From contig NZ_APNH01000005.1 in assembly GCF_040361275.1 (NCBI RefSeq), forward strand, positions 62,001 through 126,000: 64,000 nucleotides of DNA, in the 5' to 3' direction. A program made the translations under genes and the position numbers. Under the pieces are notes generated by a model. It was not told where the DNA came from, searched no databases, and saw nothing but the letters and a program-made list of their open reading frames with translations. This DNA is from Salinisphaera sp. T31B1. Its GTDB lineage: Bacteria; Pseudomonadota; Gammaproteobacteria; Nevskiales; Salinisphaeraceae. Position 1 is the first letter of the stretch. The number at the start of each line of letters is the position of its first letter. Below are positions 4,556 through 50,033 of the stretch, piece by piece.

Positions 4556-5746
4556 TCAGTATTCGACCTGCACGTACGCTGCGCTCTCGCGTGCCAGTGC
4601 GCGTGCCGCCTCGACGGTGTCCGCGCGCGCCAGGGCCACGCCGAGCCGGCGCGCGCCGTCGATGTCGGGTTTGCCGAACAGGCGCAGCTCCGTATCCGCG
4701 GCGGCCAGGGCACGCGTGAGTCCGCTGTAGCGCATCGATCGGCTCGTACCCTGGCCCATGATTACGGCCGAAGCCGCCGGGCCGCGCTGTTCGATGGTGG
4801 GAATGGGCAACCCGAGGATGGCGCGCACGTGCAGGGCGAATTCCGACAGGTTCTGGCTGGACAGCGTTACCAGGCCGGTGTCATGGGGGCGTGGCGACAC
4901 CTCGGAAAACCAGACCGTATCGCCGGCGACGAAGAACTCCACGCCGAACAGGCCATGGCCGCCCAGGGCCTGGGTGATCGCGCCGGCCTGGCGCTGTGCT
5001 TCGACCAGCGCCGCCTCGCTCATCGCCTGCGGCTGCCAGGATTCACGATAGTCGCCGTCGACCTGGCGGTGGCCGATGGGCGCGCAGAAGGCAGTGCCGT
5101 CGATATGGCGCACGGTCAGCAGCGTGATCTCGTAGTCAAAATCCACGAAGCCTTCGACGATGACCCGCGAATTGCCGTGGCGCTGGCCGCGGCCGCCGGC
5201 CTGGGAGTAGCGCCACGCCGGCTCGATATCGTCGGCATGGCGCACTGTGCTCTGTCCTTTGCCGGAAGACGACATCACCGGCTTGACCACGCAGGGCAGA
5301 CCGACTGACTCGACCGCGGCCCGATAGTCCTGTTCGGTCTCGGCAAATGCGAATGCGGACGTGCGCAGGCCCAGCTCGTCGGCGGCCAGACGACGGATGC
5401 CTTCGCGGTCCATGGTCAGGCGTGTCGCCCGAGCGGTGGGCACGACATGAAAGCCTTCGGCCTCGAGCTCGATGAGTGTGGCGGTGGCGATCGCTTCGAT
5501 CTCCGGCACGATCAGCGCCGGGCGCTCGGCCCGTATGAGCGTGCGCAGCGCATCGGCATCGCCCATGTCGACCACGCGTCGGTGTGAGGCCACATGCATG
5601 GCCGGGGCGTTGTCGTAGCGGTCCACGGCGATCACTTCGCAGCCCAGTCGCGCCAGTTCGATGGCGACCTCCTTGCCGAGTTCACCGCTGCCCAGCAGCA
5701 TGACCCGTGTAGCCGAGTCGGAATAGGGGGTGCCGATAGATGACAT
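4556..5746 (-). CDS. purT: Formate-dependent phosphoribosylglycinamide formyltransferase PurT
   Basis: PurT makes formyl-GAR from GAR, formate and ATP, the folate-independent version of the third step of purine synthesis. The 396-residue product matches the family length of about 390. It opens with [21 protein letters not shown] (pre-ATP-grasp domain), followed by the ATP-grasp signatures [16 protein letters not shown] and [15 protein letters not shown] stands six bases before the ATG at 5746; a 12-codon longer frame has no such site. It is divergent from the CoA-transferase gene with a 133-bp gap. Confidence 0.95.
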
Positions 5747-5879: not shown

Positions 5880-7091
5880 ATGAAACATCCTTTGAGCGGT
5901 TATCGCGTGATCGATACCACAGCCATGGTGTCGGGCCCGCTGGCCACCATGCAGCTGGCCGATCAGGGCGCCGAAGTGCTCAAGATCGAACGGCCGGGCG
6001 TAGGCGACTACACGCGCCTGGCCTCGAACCGGCGCCATGGTTTTTCGGCCAGCTATCTGAACAACAATCGCAACAAGCGTTCGGTGGCGCTGGATCTCAA
6101 GCAGGCCGACGGTTTGGCGGCGCTCGAGCGCCTATGCGAGAACGCGGACGTGTTCGTGCAGAACTTCCGCCCCGGCGTGGCCGAGCGTATGGGCATCGGC
6201 GAGCAGGCCATCCGAGCGGTCGCGCCCCACATCATCTATGTCTCGATCAGCGGTTTCGGCGATGCCGGGCCGTATGCGGGCTACCCGGTGTACGACCCGC
6301 TCGTTCAAGCGCTGTCGAGTCTGGCCAGTATCCAGGGCGGCGCCGATACGGCCCGTCCGCGTCTGGTGCGAACGATCGTGCCCGACAAGCTCACCGGCTA
6401 TGTCGCCGCCCAGGCGATCACCGCGGCACTGCTGGCCCGCGAGCGTGGCGCGCCGGGCCAGCACGTGCGCGTATCCATGCTGGACGCGGTGATCGACTTC
6501 CTCTGGCATTCGGATATGAACAGCCAGACGTTCGTCGGCGACGAGTTCGACCAGGCCCGAGCCGCGAGTTTCATTGACCTGATCTATGAAACCACCACCG
6601 GGCATATCAGCGTGGCCGTCCAGTCCGACAAGGAGTGGCAGGCCTTGATCCGAGCACTGGACACGCCGGAGTGGAACCAAGACCCCCGTTTTGCCACCCC
6701 GGCCGATCGCCAAGACAATATCGACGCCCGCCTGGCGCTCACGCAGCAAAAACTGGCCACGGCCAGCGCTGAGCACTGGCTCGAGCGCCTGGCCGAGTAC
6801 GGCGTGCCCTGTGCGCCGGTACTCACCCGCAGCGATCTGCTCGAACACGAACAGATCGCCGCCAACGCCATCATTGTGGAAAACGAGCATCCTCAGGCGG
6901 GGCGTCTGCGCCAGGCACGCCCGGCAGCGCGGTTTTCGGCCATGCCGGACACGGACTATGCGGGCGCGCCGGCGCTCGGCGCCGACACCGCGGCCGTACT
7001 GGCCGAGCACGGTTACGACACGCAGGCCATCGAACGACTGGTGGAACAGGGCGCGGCGGCCGTCGCCGCGCCGCACGAGGATACCCAATGA
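5880..7091 (+). CDS. CaiB/BaiF family CoA-transferase
   Basis: A 403-residue class III CoA-transferase. The N-terminus LSGYRVIDTTAMVSGPLATMQLADQGAEVLK, the segment NRNKRSVALDLK and VSISGFGDAGPYAG are family signatures. The aspartate in VPDKLTG (residue 169) aligns by position with the Asp nucleophile that carries the acyl anhydride in formyl-CoA transferase. It would move CoA between carboxylic acids; the pair of substrates is unknown. The start is the first sensible ATG after purT and has no clear ribosome site. Its last four bases overlap the GST gene (ATGA), so the two are translationally coupled. Confidence 0.9.
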   Translation: MKHPLSGYRVIDTTAMVSGPLATMQLADQGAEVLKIERPGVGDYTRLASNRRHGFSASYLNNNRNKRSVALDLKQADGLAALERLCENADVFVQNFRPGVAERMGIGEQAIRAVAPHIIYVSISGFGDAGPYAGYPVYDPLVQALSSLASIQGGADTARPRLVRTIVPDKLTGYVAAQAITAALLARERGAPGQHVRVSMLDAVIDFLWHSDMNSQTFVGDEFDQARAASFIDLIYETTTGHISVAVQSDKEWQALIRALDTPEWNQDPRFATPADRQDNIDARLALTQQKLATASAEHWLERLAEYGVPCAPVLTRSDLLEHEQIAANAIIVENEHPQAGRLRQARPAARFSAMPDTDYAGAPALGADTAAVLAEHGYDTQAIERLVEQGAAAVAAPHEDTQ

Positions 7092-7801
7092 TCGACTTCT
7101 ACTATTGGCCTACGCCCAACGGCTGGAAGATCTCCATCATGCTGGAGGAGTGCGGGCTGGATTACCGCATGGTGCCGGTGGATATCAATGCCGGCGATCA
7201 GTTCGAGCCGGCCTTTCTGGCGATCTCGCCGAACCATCGCATGCCGGCGATCGTCGATCACGCGCCCCCGGCCGATTATGGCGATGCACCCGTGCCGATC
7301 TTCGAATCGGGCGCGATCATCCGGTATCTGGCCGAAAAGGCGCAGTGCCTTTATCCGGCCGAAGCGCGGCTGCGCAAGGAAATCGACGAGTGGCTGTTCT
7401 GGCAAGTCGGCAACCTGGGGCCCATGGGCGGCCAGATGAGCCACTTCGTCAACTATGCGCCCGGAGAACATCCATACTCCTACAAGCGCTATACCGGTGA
7501 ATATCATCGGTGTCTGGGCGTACTGGAACGGCGTCTGGCCGATCGGCGCTATCTGGTCGGCGAGCAATACACCATTGCCGACATCATCAACTGGCCCTGG
7601 GTTCTTATTTCCAAGGCCATGGGCCAGCCGCTGGACGAATTTCCTCGGGTCGCGGCGTGGCGACAGCGCATCAAGGAACGCCCGGCCGTTCAGCGTGGCG
7701 TGGATCTGGGCAAGGACATGCGCGGCGGTCAGCCCAAGAGTGAGGCGGCGCGTCAGCGGTTGTTCGGCCAGACCGCGAATACGGCCGGTACCGGCGAGTG
7801 A
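7088..7801 (+). CDS. yfcG: Nu-class glutathione S-transferase / disulfide-bond oxidoreductase, YfcG-like
   Basis: A 237-residue protein whose N-terminus (IDFYYWPTPNGWKISIMLEE, then FLAISPNHRMPAIVDH) closely matches E. coli YfcG, including Thr9 and Asn11 that bind the GSH or GSSG pair. YfcG reduces disulfides using two glutathiones without a cysteine in the active site. The C-terminal helical domain (MGGQMSHFVNYAPG, YTIADIINWPW) is also typical. Its start overlaps the CoA-transferase stop by four bases. The shared transcript suggests a joint role, perhaps handling reactive acids or their thioesters; this is inference. Confidence 0.88.
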   Translation: MIDFYYWPTPNGWKISIMLEECGLDYRMVPVDINAGDQFEPAFLAISPNHRMPAIVDHAPPADYGDAPVPIFESGAIIRYLAEKAQCLYPAEARLRKEIDEWLFWQVGNLGPMGGQMSHFVNYAPGEHPYSYKRYTGEYHRCLGVLERRLADRRYLVGEQYTIADIINWPWVLISKAMGQPLDEFPRVAAWRQRIKERPAVQRGVDLGKDMRGGQPKSEAARQRLFGQTANTAGTGE

Positions 7802-43433: not shown

Positions 43434-43498
43434 GCGGCGGTCGAGCGGGCTGATCGTCCAACACGGTGGCGGCCGGTTTCCCGCGTATAATCGGCGCC

Positions 43499-43978
43499 AT
43501 GCCGGCAGCTGTGTCCGTGTCCGTTCGTCGTGCGCTTGGTCGAGATCTCGATGCGATCGAGGCACTCGAGCGCGCCTGCTTCACGATCGACGCGCAGAGC
43601 CGCCGCAGTCTCGCATACCTGCTGGGCCGGGCGAATTCGGCGGTGTTTCTGGCCGAAGCCGACTCGGTGGTGCTGGGCGACGTAATCGTGTTGTACCGCC
43701 GGTCGAGCCTTGTCGCACGCGTGTATTCGATTGCCGTGGCGGTGCCGGCCCGCGGCCGCGGGGTAGCCCGTGCCCTGTTGAGCGCTGCCGAGGAAGACGC
43801 CCGTGCGCGCGGTTGTCGTACGATGCATGCCGAGGCGCGCACCGGCAATCTGGCATCGCGCGCGTTGTTTACTACGAACGGCTATGACACCGGCGCACGG
43901 CTGGCGGCTTATTACCCCGACGGCGAGGACGGGATCCGCCTGTTCAAACGCCTGCCGGAACCGATTTCCAACCCCTAA
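43499..43978 (+). CDS. GNAT family N-acetyltransferase (partner of RimK-like ligase)
   Basis: A 159-residue RimI-like GNAT. The acetyl-CoA loop is VPARGRGVARALLSAAEEDARARG (82-105; R-x-x-G-x-A), preceded by VYSIAVA and followed by MHAEARTGNLASRALFTTNGYDTGAR. It lies 15 bp before the RimK-like gene and is surely co-transcribed. In many proteobacteria a related GNAT is fused to a papain-like C39 peptidase beside the same RimK protein; here only the GNAT is present. It may cap or modify the ligase product. Confidence 0.88.
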   Translation: MPAAVSVSVRRALGRDLDAIEALERACFTIDAQSRRSLAYLLGRANSAVFLAEADSVVLGDVIVLYRRSSLVARVYSIAVAVPARGRGVARALLSAAEEDARARGCRTMHAEARTGNLASRALFTTNGYDTGARLAAYYPDGEDGIRLFKRLPEPISNP

Positions 43979-43993
43979 TCGCGGAGTACGGCC

Positions 43994-45475
43994 ATGGCCG
44001 AGCCGATCGTCGTCGTGGAGTCGTTGAAGGACTGGAAGGCCGAGCGTCAGCCGGTGCGCCTGGTCGAGGCCGACGAGTATCTGTCCGACCCGGCGTTCGC
44101 CGAGCGCGGGCTTCACGTGATCAATCTGTGTCGAAGCACCCGATACCAGAGCCTGGGCTACTATTGTTCGCTACTGGCCGAAGCACGGGGCCATCGTGTG
44201 GTGTCGTCCGTGGCCACGCTGCAGGATCTGTCGCGCAAGATACTCTACGGCGGCGAAATTCCGGCGTTGGCGCGTTATCTCGACCGGCTGGAACCCAAGG
44301 TGCGCGCGGCGCTGCCCAAGCATTGCCATATCTTTCTGGGTCAGTGCGAGCATGCCGATCTGGCGCCGCTGGCGCGTCGTCTGTTCGAGCAGTTCGCCGT
44401 GCCATTGCTCGACGTCGAACTGCGCCATCATGAAGGCCGTGTCCGGGTGGCCGGACTGCGGCCGTTGTCGATCCGCGCGCTGGAAGCCAGCGAGGCGGAA
44501 TTTCTTGCCGATGCGGTCGCAGCGCATGTGACCCGAGGCTGGCGGGCGACGCGCAAGCGTCGGGCCTCGCGGTTCGATCTGGCAATGCTGGTCGATCCCG
44601 ATGAAGACCAGCCGCCGTCCAACCGCGGTGCGCTCAAGGCGTTCGTTGCCGCCGGGCGCAAGCTGGGCCTGGAAGTCGAACAGATCGGCAAGCGCGATCT
44701 CGGACGCCTGGCCGAGTTCGATGCACTGTTCATCCGCGAAACGACACGTCTCAATCACCATACCTATGCCTTCTCGCGGCGTGCCGAACAGGAGGGCCTG
44801 GTGGTCATGGACGACCCGACCTCGATCCTGCGCTGCACGAACAAGGTTTATCTGGCCGAATTGCTCACCCGCCATCGGGTGGCTGCCCCACGTGCCTGTA
44901 TCTTCGGCGAGAACGAGGTCGATCGCCTGCCGGAGCTGCTGGGTTTTCCCATGGTCCTCAAGGCCCCGGAGGGCGCTTTTTCCAAGGGCGTGTTCAAGGC
45001 CGAGGATCGGGTCGAACTCAAGCGCATCGCTGCGCGCCTGCTCGACGACTCCGAGCTGGCGCTCGCCCAGGAGTTCATGCCCACGGAGTTCGACTGGCGG
45101 GTCGGCGTACTGGGTGGCAAGGCCTTGTATGTCTGTCAGTACCTGATGGCCGGCGGCCATTGGCAGATCGTGGATTACGCCGCCGAGGGCGGGGCCAGCG
45201 AAGGCGATTCGCGTACGCTGGCCGTCGAGGACGCCCCGGCCCACGTCGTTCGCACGGCGGTGCGGGCCGCCAACCTCATCGGCGACGGCCTCTACGGCGT
45301 GGATCTCAAGCAGACCGTGCACGGGTTAAAGGTCATTGAAATCAACGACAATCCGAGTATCGATGCCGGCATCGAGGACCTGGTCGCCGGCGAGGCTCTC
45401 TACGATGCGATCATGGGCGAGTTTCTGCGCCGGCTGGAGCGACGAACCGAGCCGCGACCGCGACGACGGGCGTAG
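43994..45475 (+). CDS. RimK family ATP-grasp ligase with RLAN N-terminal domain
   Basis: A 493-residue amino acid ligase. Residues 1-200 match the RLAN domain that precedes this RimK clade ([47 protein letters not shown]). The ATP-grasp core occupies about 285-485: [45 protein letters not shown], and the metal-binding [14 protein letters not shown]. It should form an amide or peptide bond with glutamate or a similar amino acid, on a protein tail or a small peptide. The product is not known for this clade. The last 15 residues are Arg-rich. Confidence 0.88.
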
Positions 45476-45578: not shown

Positions 45579-47747
45579 ATGACTGACCGTATCGAAAAGT
45601 CCGGCCTGCAGATCGGCAAACCGCTTTATGAGCTGATCGAGAAAGCGCTGCCCGGCACCGGTGTCGAATCGGACGTGTTCTGGCAGGAACTGGCGGATCT
45701 GGTCGCCGAGTTCGGCCCGCACAACGCCCAGCTGCTGGCTCACCGGAAGGAACTGCAGGAGACGCTGGACAAGTGGCACCGCGAGCATCGCGGCGACCAG
45801 TTCAATTTCGAAGAATATCGCAAGCTGCTGACGGAGCTCGACTATCTCGTGCCGGACGTCGACGATTTCAAAGTCTCCACCGACAACGTCGACCCGGAAA
45901 TCGCCACGGTGCCGGGTCCGCAGCTGGTGGTACCGATCACCAACGCGCGGTTTTCGCTCAATGCGGCCAATGCCCGGTGGGGCAGCCTGTACGATGCGCT
46001 CTATGGTGCGGACATCATTCCCGAATCCGACGGCGCGGAGAAGGGCACGCGTTACAACCCCAAGCGCGGCGCCAAGGTCGTAGCCTGGGCGGCCCGCTTT
46101 CTGGACGAGAACTTCCCGCTTGCCGAAGGCAGTCATGCCGATGCGACCGCCTACAAGGTGGATAACGGCACCCTGTCGGTCGATGTCGGCGGCAGCCATA
46201 CTGCGCTCAAGGAGCCCAAGCAGTTCGCCGGCTACCAGGGCGAGGCGAGCGCGCCGAAGGCGGTGCTGCTCGTCCACAATGCGCTGCATGCCGAAATCCA
46301 GATCGATGCGACCGACCCGGTGGGCAAGGACCACGCGGCGGGGGTGAAGGACGTGCTCATGGAAGCCGCCGTCACTGCCATTCAGGATTGCGAAGACTCG
46401 GTCGCGGCGGTCGATGCCGAAGACAAGGCGCTGGTCTACGGCAACTGGCTCGGCCTGATGAAGGGCGATCTGGAAGAGAAAGTCGAGAAGGGCGGCCAGA
46501 CCATCACCCGCAAGCTCAACGATGACCGGGTCTATACCGCGCCCGACGGCTCGGAGCTGTCGCTGCCGGGTCGCAGCCTGATGCTGGTGCGTAACGTCGG
46601 CCATCTGATGACCACGCCCGCCGTGCTGGACGGACAGGGCAACGAGATTCCGGAAGGCATTCTGGACGCGCTGGCTACCGGCACGATCGCACTGCACGAT
46701 CTCAAGCGCAACGGCCCGCATACCAACAGCCGGGCCGGCAGCGTCTATATCGTCAAACCGAAGATGCACGGCCCGGCCGAGGTCAACTTCACGGTCAAGC
46801 TGTTCGAGCATATCGAGAAGGCGATCGGCATGAAGCCGAACACGCTCAAGATGGGCATCATGGACGAGGAACGGCGCACCTCGCTCAATCTCAAGGCCTG
46901 TATCGCCGAAGCGCGTGAGCGCACCATCTTCATCAACACCGGCTTTCTCGACCGTACCGGCGACGAGATGCATACCTCGATGGAAGCCGGTCCAATGCTG
47001 CCCAAGGGCGAGATGAAATCGCAGCCGTGGCTCAAGGCCTATGAAGACAACAATGTCGATACCGGTCTGGCCTGCGGGCTGCGCGGCAAGGCGCAGATCG
47101 GCAAGGGCATGTGGCCGGCGCCCGATAACATGGCGGACATGATGGAGGCCAAGATTGGCCATCCGAAGGCCGGTGCCAATTGCGCCTGGGTGCCGTCGCC
47201 GACGGCCGCGACGCTGCATGCGATCCACTATCATCGCTGCGACGTGCTCGCGCGCCAAGGCGAACTCGAGTCGCGCCGCGAGGACTATATCAACGACCTG
47301 TTGACGATCCCGCTGCTTGATCGCGAGCTCTCCGAAGAGGAAATCTCCAAGGAACTGGATAACAACTGCCAGGGCATCCTCGGTTATGTCGTGCGTTGGG
47401 TCGATCAGGGCGTGGGCTGTTCCAAGGTGCCGGACATCACCGATACCCAGCTCATGGAGGATCGTGCGACATGCCGTATCTCCTCGCAGCACGTCGCCAA
47501 TTGGCTGCACCACGGCGTGGCCAACGAGAACGACGTGCGTGAAACGCTCAAGCGCATGGCCAAGGTGGTCGATCGTCAGAACGAGGACGACCCGAACTAC
47601 ACGCCGATGTCGGCGGATTTCGATGCGTCGATCGCCTTTCAGGCGGCCTCGGATCTGATCTTCAAAGGCCGCGAGCAGCCGTCCGGTTATACCGAACCGG
47701 TCTTGCATGCGCGTCGTCGCCAGCTCAAGGCGGAACGCGCCGGCTGA
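45579..47747 (+). CDS. glcB: Malate synthase G
   Basis: GlcB condenses acetyl-CoA with glyoxylate to malate. The 722-residue length is exactly that of isoform G. Family segments include [90 protein letters not shown] (active-site region with RTS) and [19 protein letters not shown]. The ATG at 45579 has AAAGGCG upstream. No isocitrate lyase or glycolate oxidase is in view. A strong terminator follows. Confidence 0.97.
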
Positions 47748-47776
47748 GCCGCGTCCAGCAAAGCCTGCGTACACAG

Positions 47777-47801
47777 AGCCCGGCTTCGGCCGGGCTTTTT
47801 C
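47777..47801 (+). terminator. Rho-independent terminator of glcB
   Basis: AGCCCGGC (47777-47784) pairs with GCCGGGCT (47789-47796) around the stable TTCG tetraloop, followed by a run of Ts. It lies 30 bp after the glcB stop. Confidence 0.92.
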
Positions 47802-47981
47802 GTGTCTGGAATTCGGACGCAAGCGCTTGAATCAGAACAATGCATGGTGCAGACAATTGTGATAATCCCTGTGTTTGCCATGTTTTTCGGCTACGCGCTC
47901 CGATAGCCAAAAGTCTCATTGCCGGGCGAGCCCGCTTGAAGCACCCTTGCGGCGATCCGAATTCAACAACAGGGAGGGGTC

Positions 47982-48251
47982 ATGTCCGATCGCCCGAGTG
48001 GTTCCGCCGCCGATTACTGGCGTGCGAACATCCGGTTACTGCTCAAGCTGCTTGTGGTCTGGTTCGTGGTGTCCTACGGCTGCGGCATCCTGCTGGTGGA
48101 TGTGCTCAACAACATCCAGATCGGCGGATATCCCCTGGGCTATTTCTTCGCTCAACAAGGCGCGATCTATGTGTTCCTGTTCCTGATCTTCTTTTACGCC
48201 TGGCGTATGAACAAGCTCGATCGGGAATTCGGCGTCGAAGAAAAGGATTAG
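47982..48251 (+). CDS. DUF4212 small subunit of a sodium:solute symporter
   Basis: An 89-residue membrane protein with two spans (about 22-44 and 52-75). WRANIRLLLKLLVVWFVVSYGCGILLV and LGYFFAQQGAIYVFLFLIFFYAWRMNKLDREFGV are the DUF4212 signature. A strong GGGAGG ribosome site precedes the ATG. DUF4212 proteins are always found just before a sodium:solute symporter of the VC_2705 clade, as here (9 bp), and are thought to be its accessory subunit. Confidence 0.94.
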   Translation: MSDRPSGSAADYWRANIRLLLKLLVVWFVVSYGCGILLVDVLNNIQIGGYPLGYFFAQQGAIYVFLFLIFFYAWRMNKLDREFGVEEKD

Positions 48252-48260
48252 GGGAGCACG

Positions 48261-50033
48261 ATGGACACACAAACCTGGATCTATCTCGCGGTCGGCGGCA
48301 GTTTTCTGCTGTATTTCGTCATCGCGATTCTGGCCCGTGCCGGCAGTACCGAGGAGTTCTATGTTGCCGGCGGCGGCGTCGGACCGATCGCCAACGGCAT
48401 GGCCACCGCGGCCGACTGGATGAGCGCGGCGTCGTTCATCTCCATGGCGGGTCTGATCGCCTTTCTCGGCTATAACGCTTCGCCGTATCTGATGGGCTGG
48501 ACAGGCGGCTTCGTATTGCTCGCCTTGCTGCTAGCGCCTTATCTGCGCAAGTACGGCAGCTTTACGGTTCCGGCGTTCATCGGCGAGCGCTACTACTCCA
48601 ACGTCGCGCGCACCGTGGCCATCATCTGCCTGATCGTGGCGTCGGTGACGTATGTGATCGGCCAGATGAAAGGCGTGGGCGTGGCCTTCGGCCGATTCCT
48701 GGAAGTGGAGTTCGAAACCGGTGTCCTTATCGGGATGGGGGTGGTGTTCGTCTATGCCGTGCTCGGCGGCATGAAAGGCATCACCTATACCCAGATCGCC
48801 CAGTACATCGTACTGATCTTCGCCTTCACGGTGCCGGCTGTGTTCATCTCCATTCAGCTGACCGGCATTCCGTTGCCTCAGATCGGGCTCGGCTCGACCA
48901 TGGCGGACGGCAGCGGGGTGTATCTGCTCGACAAACTCAACACGGTCATCACCGACCTGGGTTTCGACCGTTTCACTGACCCCGAGCATTCCACTGTCAA
49001 TATCTTTCTGCTCACCCTGTCGCTGATGATCGGCACGGCCGGCCTGCCGCACGTGATCATCCGCTTTTTCACCGTGCGCAAGGTCACCGATGCCCGCAAG
49101 TCGGTGGGCTGGGCGCTGGTGTTCATCGCCATTCTCTACACGACCGCGCCGGCGGTCGGTGCCATGGCTCGCCTGAATCTGATGCAGACGGTCCAAACCG
49201 GCCCGATCGGCGAGCAGACGGCCAATCTCGATTACGAACAGCGGCCCCAGTGGTTCAAGACCTGGGAAGGCACCGGCCTGCTGGGCTTCGAGGACAAGAA
49301 CGGCGACGGCCGTATCCAGTACTACAACGACAAGAACCCGGAGTTTCAGGCGACGGCGAACGAGATGGGCTGGCAGGGCAACGAGATGACCACGGTCGAC
49401 CGTGACATCATGGTGCTGGCCAATCCCGAGATCGCTCAGCTGCCCTCCTGGGTGATTGCGTTGGTCGCGGCCGGCGGCGTGGCGGCCGCGTTGTCGACCG
49501 CGGCCGGCCTGTTGCTGGCCATCTCCTCGGCGATCTCGCACGATCTGCTCAAGAGCATGCTGCGGCCCAACATCTCTGAAAAAGGCGAGCTCATGGCCGG
49601 GCGTATCGCCATGGTCGGCGCGATACTGGTGGCCGGCTACCTGGGGATCAACCCGCCGGGGTTCGCCGCCGAAGTGGTGGCATTGGCGTTCGGGCTGGCC
49701 GCTTCGTCGCTGTTCCCGGTGCTGCTGATGGGCATCTTCTCCAAGCGGATGAACCGCGAGGGCGCTATCGCCGGCATGCTGGCCGGTCTGGTTGCCACCG
49801 TGGCTTATATCTTCATCTACAAGGGGATGTTCTTCATTCCCGGGACCAATCTGTTCCCGGATTCGGCCGATGCCTGGCTGTTCGGCATCCAGCCGGAATC
49901 GTTCGGCGCGATCGGGGCCTTGGTCAACTTTGTTGTGGCCTATGCTGTATCGAGGGTGACGGCACCGCCACCGCCCGAAATCGAGCAGATGGTCGAGAAC
50001 ATCCGCGTGCCGGGGGCTCTGCGACAAGCCTGA
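48261..50033 (+). CDS. Sodium:solute symporter family protein (VC_2705/ActP-like clade)
   Basis: A 590-residue SSS-family transporter with about 13 spans. Family motifs are EEFYVAGGGVGPIANGMATAADWMSAASFISMAG near the N-terminus and ALSTAAGLLLAISSAISHDL. The clade has a hydrophilic insert (about 318-385) absent from PutP; here it contains DKNGDGRIQYYN (345-356), an EF-hand-like Ca2+ loop. Substrates for relatives are acetate and other short carboxylates; its position after malate synthase fits acetate uptake. GGGGAG precedes the start, and a terminator follows. Confidence 0.92.
   Translation: MDTQTWIYLAVGGSFLLYFVIAILARAGSTEEFYVAGGGVGPIANGMATAADWMSAASFISMAGLIAFLGYNASPYLMGWTGGFVLLALLLAPYLRKYGSFTVPAFIGERYYSNVARTVAIICLIVASVTYVIGQMKGVGVAFGRFLEVEFETGVLIGMGVVFVYAVLGGMKGITYTQIAQYIVLIFAFTVPAVFISIQLTGIPLPQIGLGSTMADGSGVYLLDKLNTVITDLGFDRFTDPEHSTVNIFLLTLSLMIGTAGLPHVIIRFFTVRKVTDARKSVGWALVFIAILYTTAPAVGAMARLNLMQTVQTGPIGEQTANLDYEQRPQWFKTWEGTGLLGFEDKNGDGRIQYYNDKNPEFQATANEMGWQGNEMTTVDRDIMVLANPEIAQLPSWVIALVAAGGVAAALSTAAGLLLAISSAISHDLLKSMLRPNISEKGELMAGRIAMVGAILVAGYLGINPPGFAAEVVALAFGLAASSLFPVLLMGIFSKRMNREGAIAGMLAGLVATVAYIFIYKGMFFIPGTNLFPDSADAWLFGIQPESFGAIGALVNFVVAYAVSRVTAPPPPEIEQMVENIRVPGALRQA

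Follow-up and report, generated by a model that had tools for sequence, protein, structure and literature searches.

The GNAT acetyltransferase and the RLAN-containing ATP-grasp ligase encoded side by side in the window, the stretch of 64,000 nucleotides from Salinisphaera sp. T31B1 analysed here, belong to a known, uncharacterised gene family and form a recurring variant of it that lacks the peptidase. We tentatively propose that the two proteins act as a coupled amidoligase-acetyltransferase pair which makes a small N-acetylated amide or peptide, probably containing glutamate or aspartate. No characterisation of the RLAN system and no described product were found in the literature searched, in agreement with the initial annotation of this DNA, which had named no known product. 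The distribution of three gene layouts, the repeated absence of the C39 peptidase and the fold of the RLAN domain are newly added here.

The gene pair and the C39 peptidase

The first gene (43499..43978, forward strand) encodes a stand-alone GNAT acetyltransferase of 159 aa, which was matched by the Pfam profile PF00583 (Acetyltransf_1) with an E-value of 7e-14 (52.5 bits, cut-off 20.7). The second gene (43994..45475) begins 15 bp further on the same strand and encodes a 493-aa RLAN plus RimK-type ATP-grasp amidoligase, in which PF14401 (RLAN) matches aa 27-174 (E 1.3e-41, 142 bits, cut-off 25) and PF08443 (RimK) matches aa 283-457 (E 4e-8, 33.5 bits, cut-off 21). These profiles bear out the domain calls and the 15 bp spacing given in the initial annotation, including its assignment of the ligase N-terminus to RLAN, which the PF14401 match confirms.

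A hexamer resembling a -10 element, TATAAT (43486..43491, forward strand), was read directly in the sequence; 7 nt separate its end from the GNAT start codon at 43499. TATACT or TATGAT was observed at about the same spacing in six of the ten relatives compared (L059, L060, L061, L064, L066 and L067), of which L066 and L067 are nearly identical to each other. The region upstream of the GNAT gave no -35 match, and a consensus scan returned no promoter there. The position of the hexamer suggests that a leaderless transcript may start the pair at ATG 43499; an alternative in-frame start, GTG 43466, would give a protein of 170 aa instead of 159 aa.

The pair is flanked by a DJ-1-like gene upstream and by malate synthase G downstream. 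Downstream of the pair (45580-50033 in the window), Salinisphaera relatives likewise have malate synthase G, and several of them add a VC_2705-type solute symporter; this synteny is lost outside the family. No conserved small precursor ORF was found near the pair, the small ORFs repeated most often being antisense shadows of malate synthase.

Two C39 families were searched for, and the genome-wide absence of the peptidase refers to these two. DUF3335 (PF11814), the C39 domain of GNAT-C39 fusions, had no match in the 159-aa GNAT or in the whole genome, and was absent from the other 13 Salinisphaera genomes searched. Peptidase_C39_2 (PF13529) had no match in the whole genome or in the genus. The earlier description of a GNAT without a C39 domain and with no C39 gene nearby therefore holds, and the search for a C39 peptidase encoded elsewhere found neither of the two tested families in the genome.

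Distribution and history of the gene layouts

Three layouts were distinguished: a GNAT fused to C39 and next to an RLAN ligase (layout A); separate genes for a C39 protein, an RLAN ligase, a GCS2-like ligase and an N-formylglutamate-amidohydrolase-like (FGase) protein (layout B); and a GNAT without C39 together with an RLAN ligase, as in the window (layout C). The GNAT-DUF3335 (C39) plus RLAN-RimK pair was reportedly described in the amidoligase paper of Iyer et al. in 2009, and is said to have been predicted there to be a peptide synthesis or modification system. With this pair the window shares the RLAN ligase family, the RLAN-linked GNAT family, its near-invariant residues and the adjacency of the two genes, whereas the DUF3335 domain fused to the GNAT is missing and the tested C39 families are absent genome-wide. 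DUF3335-GNAT fusions have also been noted elsewhere (PMC10318531). The operon of layout B has the RLAN ligase in common with the window but no linked GNAT, as exemplified by L038 (7598-9073 and neighbours), L041 and L057; its GCS2-like, FGase-like and C39 genes are missing from the window locus, where the neighbours of the ligase are the DJ-1-like gene, the GNAT and malate synthase G. This third arrangement, with its GCS2-like and FGase-like genes, goes beyond the picture drawn previously.

RLAN was found in 56 of 61 related genomes, mostly of the window's order, and DUF3335 in only four, all from one family. A class-level sample of 276 genomes contained 63 with RLAN (23%) and 43 with a strong DUF3335 match. 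RLAN was present in 42 of these 43, against the background of 23%, and in 40 of them the two domains are encoded at most about 3 kb apart on one contig. Among the 21 RLAN genomes of this sample without a strong DUF3335 match, eight have a stand-alone GNAT beside RLAN, 11 have layout B in complete or partial form and one has neither, with one more left out of the layout count. In a set of 140 loci, some of which repeat one genome, about 60 carry a fused GNAT-C39, 60 a stand-alone GNAT, 12 the C39/GCS2 type and eight none of these. The adjacency of GNAT and RLAN is more than chance would produce, since the same GNAT family lies beside the ligase in about 120 of these 140 loci. Relatives of the ligase are encoded in at least nearly 600 stretches among the matches listed.

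The peptidase-free pair is thus not unusual: it is normal in the window's order and recurs on the ligase tree. The reduced form described in the initial annotation is not special to this genome and is seen on several branches of that tree. The suggestion of a minimal system fits in that GNAT and RLAN ligase do persist without the peptidase, but in layout B it is RLAN that is retained, with no GNAT linked to it. Loci in which a C39-like gene, the RLAN ligase and the GNAT are three separate adjacent genes (G035 on C1, G043 on C34, and G044, all of family f2) are intermediate between the layouts, as is L075, where the same three genes are likewise separate neighbours. At L095 a second stand-alone GNAT (4980-5585) was observed 3' of the RLAN ligase, in a genome which also has a GNAT-C39 fusion.

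The order and orientation of the two genes vary between lineages. In Salinisphaera and its closest relatives the GNAT precedes the ligase on the same strand; it lies downstream, mostly with a 4-bp overlap, in loci of families f2 and f4, which belong to the window's taxonomic order; it is divergent from the ligase in Dyella, Rhodanobacter, Pseudomonas and Halomonadaceae; and in family f5 it is fused to C39 and convergent with the ligase. That the linkage outlasts this reshuffling is strong evidence that the two genes form a functional pair.

Mapped on the tree of 117 ligases, the label for a stand-alone GNAT needs 11 changes, nine of them forced by starred branches. A single origin of the C39-less form was rejected on the ligase tree with 41 representatives (lnL difference 718, p-AU 1e-46). 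As the layout C ligases do not come together in a single clade there, the C39 peptidase looks dispensable. The window ligase is placed in a group of ten rows formed by Salinisphaera and its nearest relatives (support 99); by its nearest named relative, L099, the window belongs to Salinisphaera. L098 falls inside Salinisphaera, and the organism named in its record title, Endozoicomonas sp. G2_2, is probably wrong. In the RLAN tree the layout B group also contains the RLAN-GNAT loci of families f2 and f4, which are of the same order as the window. In the GNAT tree, which is weaker than the ligase tree, most stand-alone GNATs cluster with a support of 89, and those of Pseudomonas fluorescens-type strains (L158/L160), L042 and L047 sit among the fused ones. 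This topology would fit an old stand-alone lineage with a few recent losses or many losses alike, and the two histories cannot be separated. Some losses of C39 are thus recent, while the remainder may date further back or stem from exchange of the partner gene.

Structural features of the two enzymes

For the ligase, structure prediction gave a model with a pLDDT of 87. Its catalytic half, comprising the pre-ATP-grasp and ATP-grasp regions (aa 192-485; 44567..45448, forward strand), matches ArgX/LysX with a Z-score of 28.5 and RimK with 26-27, and in this model it is closest in structure to LysX/ArgX/RimK. These enzymes ligate glutamate or alpha-aminoadipate. In an alignment with 29 relatives (A1), to which the ligase is 35-78% identical, the catalytic motifs EINDNP (E449, N451) and DWR are conserved, and an invariant HWQ occupies the place of the equivalent RimK stretch. 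The acceptor, given this HWQ, probably differs from that of RimK and may not be glutamate. Thus, although the catalytic half shares the fold of the LysX/ArgX and RimK alpha-L-glutamate ligases (Z 26-28.5), the window ligase is unlike them in its extra RLAN domain, in HWQ and in falling far under their equivalog cut-offs. Identification as RimK, the S6 ligase, was rejected on two models (NF007764, 30.4 against 331 bits; TIGR00768, 82.5 against a cut-off of 143.4 bits), and identification as LysX on one (TIGR02144, 77.8 against 275.6 bits).

The RLAN domain (aa 1-186; 43994..44551, forward strand), modelled alone, was predicted with a pLDDT of 92.7. It matches ArgX, LysX and RimK with Z-scores of 10-10.7 over 163-176 residues (10.7 over 168 residues for ArgX), and the 30 top Foldseek hits of the model are all ATP-grasp-fold proteins. 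The alignments span the chain from start to end while skipping about 100 residues, a stretch most simply taken to be the ATP lid, and the helices and strands follow one another as in the catalytic half of the ligase. In these models RLAN looks like a degenerate ATP-grasp copy without the ATP-binding lid, which offers a putative structural assignment for an uncharacterised Pfam domain, along with a substrate-binding role that can be tested. Compared by sequence, the two halves gave an hhalign p of about 0.013-0.019; the duplication diagonal ranks second and third of 39,976 offsets, and the top score is also attained by 24 of 200 shuffles. At the sequence level an internal tandem duplication of the ligase is only suggestive.

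The acetyl-CoA motif RxxGxA/G is present in the GNAT as RGRGVA. Eight residues (E24, F28, D31, R74, Y76, S77, N117 and Y139) are near-invariant in 97 fused and stand-alone relatives, and since they are common to both forms, these are probably the same enzyme acting on the same substrate. RimI is the best NCBIfam family for the GNAT, but with 57.7 bits against a cut-off of 86.4 (TIGR01575) it was rejected as its identity. True RimI (117 bits) and RimK (486 bits) proteins are encoded elsewhere in the genome, the latter beside a protease-like gene (PF05618). With its own RimI and RimK in the genome, the pair is not the ribosomal one and replaces neither of them. A GNAT-C39 fusion at L079 (7136-8263) has a GNAT half that exceeds the NCBIfam cut-off for RimI (88.8 against 86.4), so that automatic annotation may call it RimI.

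Possible product and competing explanations

What the data show are the identity of the domains, a linkage that recurs under changing gene order and orientation, intact catalytic motifs and the apparent dispensability of the C39 part; the amino acids, the order of the steps and the physiological role are inferred. The ATP-grasp half would convert a carboxylate to an acyl-phosphate, which would then react with an amino acid's amino group to give an amide, the amino acid being most likely glutamate or a similar acidic one, while the RLAN half, as a putative dead ATP-grasp copy, would help to bind a substrate. The GNAT would acetylate a free alpha-amino group, either that of the first amino acid, as in the Ngg (NAGGN) pathway, or that of the product as a cap, and the outcome would be a small N-acetylated peptide rich in glutamate/aspartate. 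Where it is present, the C39 part may hydrolyse or remodel the same amide, and the window lineage would manage without this step. The survival of GNAT and RLAN ligase without the peptidase narrows the biochemical problem to two soluble enzymes.

In mammals, the GNAT enzyme NAT8L makes an N-acetyl acidic amino acid to which the RimK-like ligase RIMKLA joins glutamate, giving N-acetylaspartylglutamate; its likeness to the window pair would be an analogy of logic only. A bacterial precedent is Ngg, the N-acetylglutaminylglutamine synthetase of the NAGGN osmolyte pathway (PA3460), which N-acetylates one glutamine and joins a second, and whose operon includes a peptidase gene (PMC8070244). There too a GNAT and an ATP-grasp act together, but Ngg is one fused protein, whereas the window GNAT and ligase are two chains; TIGR03103 (NAGGN synthetase) was not among the matches of the ligase at E 0.01 or among the best 25 of the GNAT. 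The order of ligation followed by a GNAT cap has been proposed for R2K families (PMC4431377). In other genomes, neighbours of the family are tied to N-acyl or glutamate/aspartate compounds, namely FGase, GCS2, DUF2817 (a weak AstE/AspA match) and ArgE. We favour the small-peptide proposal because of the linkage, the common GNAT residues, the LysX/ArgX/RimK-like half, these neighbours and the Ngg and R2K precedents. Several points count against it: HWQ, the missing match to NAGGN synthetase, a GNAT resembling RimI, an enzyme whose target is the N-terminus of a protein, the restriction of the ArgA/ArgE and DUF2817 neighbours to some genomes, and layout B, which has no linked GNAT.

Protein modification is a rather unlikely alternative: here the ligase would attach amino acids to a particular protein at its tail, and the GNAT would acetylate this protein or its tag, much as RimK and RimI act on ribosomal proteins. 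The fold of the ligase is near RimK and the GNAT is nearest RimI, with a fused relative above the RimI cut-off (88.8 against 86.4); however, the genome has its separate RimI and RimK, no conserved small or partner protein gene adjoins the pair, and HWQ replaces the equivalent RimK stretch. The closest solved structures, LysX and ArgX, would also be compatible with loading of an amino acid on a small amino-group carrier in the LysX/ArgX-LysW style, the GNAT working on the carried intermediate. We regard this as improbable, given that a search of the locus showed no conserved small gene resembling a carrier, and that the LysX model scores far under its cut-off (77.8 against 275.6 bits).

Highly improbable is a role in detoxification or resistance, in which an amine-bearing toxic compound would be inactivated by acetylation and conjugation to an amino acid: the weak GNAT matches to aminoglycoside and streptothricin acetyltransferases that would point to it all fall far under the cut-offs, and near-universal presence in the order (56 of 61 genomes) is atypical of resistance genes. 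The missing C39 domain could also mean that the GNAT lies beside the ligase without any relation to it, or that the pair is a decaying remnant of a GNAT-C39 system; this is hardly credible, as both genes have been kept together in Salinisphaera and in genera related to it, their proteins retain intact motifs, and loci without C39 appear repeatedly on the ligase tree.

The small-peptide proposal may be extended, with clearly less likelihood than the proposal itself, to all RLAN ligases as tandem ATP-grasps with one live and one dead copy, the latter of which would hold a second substrate; together with the GNAT they would provide a widespread route to an N-acetylated peptide, possibly a compatible solute of halophiles, and this route would have lost its peptidase several times independently.

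The Rlo operon of Pseudomonas aeruginosa encodes a cytoplasmic ATP-grasp, a retropepsin-like protease and a 7TM inactive transglutaminase (PMC12239564), and thus also links a cytoplasmic ATP-grasp to a peptidase. Identity of the pair with this system was rejected, as no retropepsin-like protease or 7TM transglutaminase gene adjoins the pair, which has a GNAT instead.

Two further neighbourhoods were observed around GNAT-C39 loci. At L078 the RLAN ligase and the divergent GNAT-C39 gene are separated by a DUF2817 gene (6660-7757; weak AstE/AspA match), and a gap of about 1.2 kb, as at L078, also occurs in L080, L084, L114, L118, L128, L135 and L141; the same gene cluster was confirmed for L080 and L084, the others being known by spacing only. 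The GNAT-C39 plus RLAN pair adjoins argE (acetylornithine deacetylase) in L079, L082, L083 and L094, and an argA-like gene, probably encoding ArgA, was also found in L079, L082 and L094.
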